From Sulfurovum sp. (GTDB lineage Bacteria > Campylobacterota > Campylobacteria > Campylobacterales > Sulfurovaceae), in NCBI GenBank assembly GCA_027063305.1, contig JAMORY010000023.1, forward strand, positions 1-43,962: a stretch of DNA of 43,962 nt, read 5' to 3'. The notes under the pieces are model-generated. The model was not told where the DNA came from. It did not search any database and worked only from the letters and a program-made list of their open reading frames with translations. This document shows, piece by piece, positions 27,325 through 27,646 of this stretch. The translations under genes and the position numbers were made by a program. The first letter of the stretch is position 1, and every line of letters starts with the position of its first letter.

Positions 27325-27480
27325 AAAATAATTCCCTTGCTTTGACATTAAAATAGGATGTGTAGGGTAAAGAGGAGGCTTTGGGAGAAGAAAAGAGGTG
27401 GGATACACCTGATTGAGATTCCAAAAGTTCACTCTTCCTTACGCCGGTATCATCCGGGTCAAGTTCAGCGGGTAGATTGT

Positions 27481-27543
27481 CATGGGAGTCAGACCCGCAA
27501 ACGATACATCGCTTTGCGACATATCATTTGAGGTCAGACCCCT
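27481..27543. repeat. Riboswitch repeat, copy 1 (in the CUGAGA-ACCC segment)
   Basis: A 63-bp unit from CATGGGAGTCAGACCC to GGTCAGACCCCT. Its core forms a hairpin of about 12 bp around ACATCGC-TTT-GCGACAT, with G-U pairs when read as minus-strand RNA. It is flanked by ATTGT/AATCT and is about 92% identical to copy 2 in the same orientation. Confidence 0.85.
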
Positions 27544-27558
27544 AATCTTCTCAGCCAT

Positions 27559-27620
27559 CATGGGTTCAGACCCACAAACAATACATCGCTTTGCGACATA
27601 TCATTTGAGGTCAGATCCCT
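27559..27620. repeat. Riboswitch repeat, copy 2 (in the P3 loop)
   Basis: A 62-bp unit from CATGGGTTCAGACCC to GGTCAGATCCCT, sharing the central ATACATCGCTTTGCGACAT hairpin with copy 1 and differing at about five positions. It is flanked by CCAT and ATGG, the two arms of riboswitch stem P3. Confidence 0.85.
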
Positions 27621-27646
27621 ATGGCACCCCGAGAGTTTGAACCACC

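Follow-up and report, generated by a model that had tools for sequence, protein, structure and literature searches.

The leader of thiC in the window, by which we mean the whole 43,962-nucleotide stretch of Sulfurovum DNA analysed here, raises the question of how a TPP riboswitch comes to hold two copies of one hairpin repeat inside its aptamer and whether it can still act as a riboswitch. Our analysis makes it highly probable that this is a TPP riboswitch, probably functional, in which the P3 and P3a arms each hold one tolerated 58-nt mobile palindromic element.

By the criteria of sequence and structure, the RNA in the window is a TPP riboswitch. In a targeted covariance-model scan, a match to RF00059 was observed in front of thiC with a score of 56.3 bits (E 1.8e-10), which is a narrow margin over the gathering score of 54.3, and the alignment covers the full model (1-105; minus strand, Table 1). 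The default fast Rfam scan of the whole window gave no RF00059 match, presumably because of the inserts. The conserved core is all there, with CUGAGA, P2, GAAC.UGA, P4/P5 and GCGUAnGGAA found ahead of the thiamine gene. In P2 a C-G pair replaces the usual A-U pair, and P5 is perfect. The initial annotation had placed a TPP aptamer with its conserved parts before thiC and had named alignment to RF00059 as the check; the match above the gathering score, with the core aligned, bears this out. A longer thiC ORF reaching up to 27432 and starting within the riboswitch is probably over-long, and homologues were observed to align from about residue 16-45 of this ORF.

Table 1. Positions of the features at the thiC locus in the window, together with the element-bearing RNase P RNA loci.
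Feature	Position	Strand	Basis
thiC	25429..27324	-	PF01964, E 7e-187; PF13667; ATG 27324 after AGGGAA
Leader, aptamer to thiC; predicted pairing of aptamer 3' end (GUAAGGA.GAG) with downstream CCUCCUCUUUAC	27325..27418	-	
TPP riboswitch aptamer (RF00059), full length, both arms expanded	27419..27641	-	covariance-model score
58-nt palindromic element copy 2, in P3a arm	27485..27542	-	87.0 bits, element model R1
Conserved CUGAGA (J3/2), between P3 and P3a	27549..27554	-	sequence; RF00059 alignment
58-nt palindromic element copy 1, in P3 arm	27562..27619	-	78.2 bits, element model R1
Element-bearing RNase P RNA loci	L015, L021, L031, L035, L185, L213, L220, L222, L223, L390		

The two 58-nt units are direct repeats in the same orientation with a spacing of 77 nt. 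They are identical at 53 of 58 positions and form the closest pair of copies in the window genome, and by chance alone one would not expect the unit to be matched anywhere in the window. The P3 unit lies between the closing strands GCCAT (27625-27621) and ATGGC (27558-27554), and the P3a unit between AGATT (27548-27544) and AATCT (27478-27474), which is followed by ACCC. The 225-nt riboswitch region was found to fold at -94 kcal/mol against -63 kcal/mol for shuffles (z -7.1). The description of two self-folding repeats of the same orientation inside the aptamer, given in the initial annotation, is thus confirmed. Its remark that an arm between CUGAGA and P2 was unfamiliar does not hold, as this arm is the optional P3a stem, which is already in the RF00059 model, was counted in 552 of the 907 TPP aptamers surveyed in one study and is predicted to stack on P2 (Barrick and Breaker 2007, PMC2258182). 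In the close relatives G110, G116, G125 and G063, P3 is GCCATGGAAGACATGGC or near to it with the loop GGAAGA, and P3a is AGACCCACAAAGGTCT or near to it, so that P3a measures about 15 nt in relatives and about 75 nt in the window. As the arms of the relatives are short, those of the window are ordinary P3 and P3a arms that have been lengthened by inserts. The location of the second arm is therefore known, and it is what fills both arms that is unusual.

One could suppose that P3 and P3a have simply expanded in the ordinary way, or that the copies are a local tandem duplication, with no mobile DNA involved. The closeness of the pair and the few bases that the two have in common outside the unit (TAGGG and CCCATGA) would fit such an origin, and local copying is plausible for the second copy. 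However, the unit was observed at many unrelated loci of this and other genomes, including RNase P RNA and protein genes, and this reading is extremely improbable. For the first copy, a non-mobile expansion is excluded by the dispersal of the unit in the window genome and its relatives.

Two further clear copies of the unit were found elsewhere in the window genome (2.03 Mb), at C3:17832 and C8:2948. A search of related genomes, which had also been proposed initially, showed the element to be dispersed among them: copies are present in 55 of 175 Sulfurovaceae genomes, which represent 8 of the 11 genera, and a single genome holds as many as 24. The 399 genomes sampled from the order gave no more than weak matches beyond the Sulfurovaceae, and these in two genomes. 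When 32 copies were aligned, they were seen to share a 26-bp hairpin interrupted by one U.U mismatch and one bulged C. In this alignment 96.5% of cells are paired and both sides have changed in 15 of the 26 pairs, which is far from the values of shuffled or slid controls, with 0 shuffles reaching the observed level. Several G.U pairs are conserved, and one of the two strands would therefore form the better hairpin, whether as RNA or as single-stranded DNA. The subfamilies are mostly 52-58 nt in length and have their outer ends in common. The consensus starts with GGGG and ends with CCCC without the tag of the GTAG or CGTC superfamilies, and assignment to REPs of either superfamily was ruled out on this basis. 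Judged from its sequences, which are dispersed in many copies and are absent from the short riboswitch arms of close relatives, the family would be a non-autonomous mobile palindromic repeat. At L008 (~1440-1620), a different palindromic repeat (CTTCGACAAGCTGAGTACT...AGTACTCAACTTGTCGAAG) was noticed to hold the element in its loop.

Genes for Y1 transposases (PF01797) were found in 134 of 175 genomes. GGGTCAG-type repeats border most of the 19 Y1 loci inspected in relatives, on one side or on both; with a strict pattern, repeats on both sides were observed at 9 of the 19, for example TAGGGGTCAGGTGATAATGATAAC. Inverted repeats of the form GGGGTCAG... flank many of these transposase genes, and the 3' end of the element on the complementary strand is likewise GGGGTCAG, its 5' end being GGGGTCTG. 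In the 58-nt subfamily, only the outer bases, GGGGTC(T/A)G..CTGACCCC, match the transposase repeats; the 57-nt subfamily also has in common with them the GGTGAT beside the end. The GGGTCAG-type repeats fit the GGGGWSAS terminal inverted repeats of RAYT-like tyrosine transposases known as TIRtrons (PMC3733652), and the 3' end of the element is alike, whereas its 5' end and the interior of the 58-nt subfamily differ. When the two Y1 transposase genes of the window genome were checked for such terminal repeats none were found, so that the mobiliser would be either missing from this genome or not assembled, and mobilisation of the element by these enzymes is for this reason a step that we infer. 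A RAYT-like Y1 (HUH) transposase is the most likely agent of its spread.

Four of the thiC riboswitches examined carry the element, namely those of the window genome (G000; P3 and P3a), G099 (P3a), G029 (P3a) and G105 (P3). In G105 the P3 copy is 55 nt long and belongs to another subfamily, and P3a is ordinary; by subfamily and site, its insertion is an independent event. The ThiC tree, which is a quick tree with many open forks, places G000 next to G099 and puts G029 and G105 elsewhere, and on it the element-bearing rows require four label changes. The nearest named ThiC neighbours of the window genome are from Sulfurovum and other Epsilonproteobacteria MAGs. Taken as a whole, the occupancy of thiC riboswitches points to at least two events, and probably to three or more. 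The P3a copies of G000, G099 and G029 have the flanks AGATT...CATGACAATCT in common while the element bodies resemble the copies of their own genomes. For example, the P3a copy of G099 matches the RNase P copy of the same genome at 55 of 58 positions and the P3a copy of G000 at just 48 of 58. Bodies of this kind at common flanks therefore suggest within-genome homogenisation or the repeated use of one slot. Furthermore, as the P3 and P3a copies of the window are closer to each other (53/58) than are the orthologues (48/58), the P3 copy may come from local copying and not from a second transposition.

Other TPP riboswitches of the relatives also vary in these arms. In the thiD riboswitch of G033 (L202 617-700, minus strand), P3a holds just GGGGTCTGACCCC, which reads like the two ends of the element fused together and is possibly a scar of excision or recombination. 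The thiB riboswitch of G031 (L372 ~680-790) has a long P3 and was suspected of holding the element because of its low score; the arm was found to consist of an unrelated palindrome (CTTGAATAACAGGTC...GACCTATTATTCAAG).

Because the unit is dispersed in the window genome and its relatives, and because the arms of close relatives are short, the invasion of a repeat that is tolerated by the RNA, which was one of two readings offered in the initial annotation, is the best supported. The other was an added sensor or processing arm, and this is left without support since few species are occupied, the subfamilies differ and the unit also lies in unrelated genes. In its wider form, in which the hairpins would be functional arms that serve as processing sites, protein-binding sites or stabilisers of P3/P3a tuning the switch, we consider this reading improbable. 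Three genomes, of which G029 is not near the others on the ThiC tree, hold the element at one shared P3a slot with common flanks, and the structure of the element is conserved by covariation, as might be expected of a functional arm. However, the covariation was measured over all copies, most of which are in unrelated genes, and it therefore characterises the element rather than the riboswitch. The element is also absent from the riboswitch in most close relatives of the window genome and present at just four of the thiC loci examined, and the fused ends in the thiD riboswitch of G033 are what is expected of a decaying passenger.

The effect of a tolerated insertion on the aptamer was examined by ensemble folding. 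Pair probabilities for P1, P2 and P5 were.80,.39 and.997 in the native RNA,.76,.37 and.997 with both arms trimmed to a tetraloop, and.70,.11 and.87 with the elements shuffled. The native value was reached by 24.5% of shuffles for P1, 5.5% for P2 and 1.5% for P5. The predicted probability of P2 is low but it is equal without the elements. The predicted stability of the core is thus the same whether the arms hold the elements or are short, and lower when the elements are shuffled; the elements would therefore act as closed modules.

Downstream of the aptamer, the relatives G099, G116, G110, G125 and G063 have a pairing in which the aptamer 3' end and the bases next to it (GGAAGAG...UUGUAAU) can pair with AUUAC..CUCUUCCC. 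This downstream segment could alternatively pair with the ribosome site AAGGGAA, which suggests translational control with an ON/OFF logic that we infer from the pairing. The leader in the window is accordingly a probable translational expression platform. Its pairing is still predicted but is less regular than in the relatives, and its fold is no better than that of shuffles (z -0.43). A weak terminator-like hairpin with a 5-bp stem was observed between the aptamer and the start codon (27396-27410, minus strand), and a scan for sigma-70 promoters found nothing.

With an intact core and a predicted platform, the thiC riboswitch is probably still working despite its inserts, and it would be expected to bind TPP and to regulate thiC. 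It is unlikely, though less so than the other alternatives, that the insertions have inactivated or weakened it and that thiC is now constitutive or otherwise controlled. There are two inserts of 58 nt in this riboswitch, its RF00059 score of 56.3 bits compares with mostly 64-83 bits in relatives, and the downstream pairing is less perfect than in G099, G116 and G063. On the other hand, every core motif is intact, including the C-G pair in P2 and the perfect P5, folding of the core is predicted to be the same with the elements, the pairing downstream of the aptamer 3' end is still predicted, and the cores of G099, G029 and G105 are intact while the element is present.

The element is not confined to riboswitches. 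RNase P RNA (RF00010) was found to hold it in ten Sulfurovaceae genomes and in both orientations, and the insert lies in the P12 loop in all four of the alignments inspected (L015, L021, L031 and L035). It also occurs in frame inside hisH, alaS, pyrD, sdhA/frdA-like, mnmC-like and other genes. A copy length of 1 mod 3 (58, 55, 52, 64 or 67) was observed for 28 of the 32 copies in ORFs open for 200 nt or more to either side and for 15 of 42 copies elsewhere. Nearly all sense copies in ORFs use one open frame, GLTSDDLSQSDESSAGLTP or similar, and such a length together with the TA that usually precedes the element would preserve the reading frame. Tandem in-frame copies within single genes were noticed at L009 and L017 (hisH), L206 (sdhA/frdA-like), L023 and L217, and one stretch in L206 has three separate copy groups. 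Outside RNA genes, the flanks showed no palindromic target preference clearly above shuffled pairs (64 of 1000 shuffles were as high), and the hairpin-tip positions in RNAs are therefore better read as the result of selection than of targeting. The flanks differ at a few sdhA-like sites: L016, L219 and L033 represent one site where, unlike at most protein-gene sites, the element lies between a near-perfect host inverted repeat (CTTGA..TCAAG). The resemblance of G078:C39 to the CUGAGA flank was judged a coincidence, as this locus is not a riboswitch.

The element thus appears to spread through being harmless wherever it is inserted. A Y1 enzyme of the same bacterial family would spread the non-autonomous element, and the variable P3 and the optional P3a would each have taken in one copy. 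The copies could persist there because they sit at the tips of peripheral hairpins, each folded into its own closed hairpin, with the aptamer core unchanged, and would then be neutral for fitness. The closed RNA hairpin, one stop-free frame and a frame-keeping length may in the same way have let sister copies persist in RNase P RNA and in protein genes. We tentatively extend this to a more speculative proposal, namely that the element, harmless in any transcript, repeatedly fills the same slots (TPP P3/P3a, RNase P P12 and fixed hisH or sdhA-like sites) and that the subfamily native to each genome later replaces or homogenises the residents. If so, it would be a recurrent source of variation in riboswitch arms and ribozyme helices.

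A search of the literature found no REP/TIR or mobile palindrome inside a riboswitch aptamer, which is weak evidence as subscription journals were mostly outside its coverage. The finding of one mobile hairpin family in a riboswitch aptamer, in RNase P RNA and in frame in protein genes provides a concrete source of arm variation in structured RNAs. Compared with the usual TPP riboswitch (RF00059), the riboswitch in the window shares the full core, the place before thiC and the standard positions of P3 and P3a, but copies of one and the same dispersed mobile element occupy both variable arms. Short palindromes that lie in frame in many unrelated genes, sometimes twice per gene, are known as Rickettsia palindromic elements or in-ORF REPs (Di Nocera et al. 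2013, PMC3733652). The Sulfurovaceae family likewise lies in frame in many ORFs, a likeness that concerns the insertion mode of the family and not the copies in the window. It differs in its Campylobacterota host and in the repeat itself, in its presence in RNase P RNA and a riboswitch, and in ends that resemble the repeats of Y1 transposases. It is therefore a gene-invading palindrome of this kind in free-living bacteria that is tied to a candidate transposase, which makes its mode of spread testable. In addition, a BOX element is found between two T-box riboswitches in the pneumococcal trp operon (PMC3049150), where a mobile palindromic repeat shares its transcript with riboswitches that apparently remain functional. 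The BOX element, however, lies between aptamers, whereas the Sulfurovaceae element lies inside two helices of the aptamer itself.
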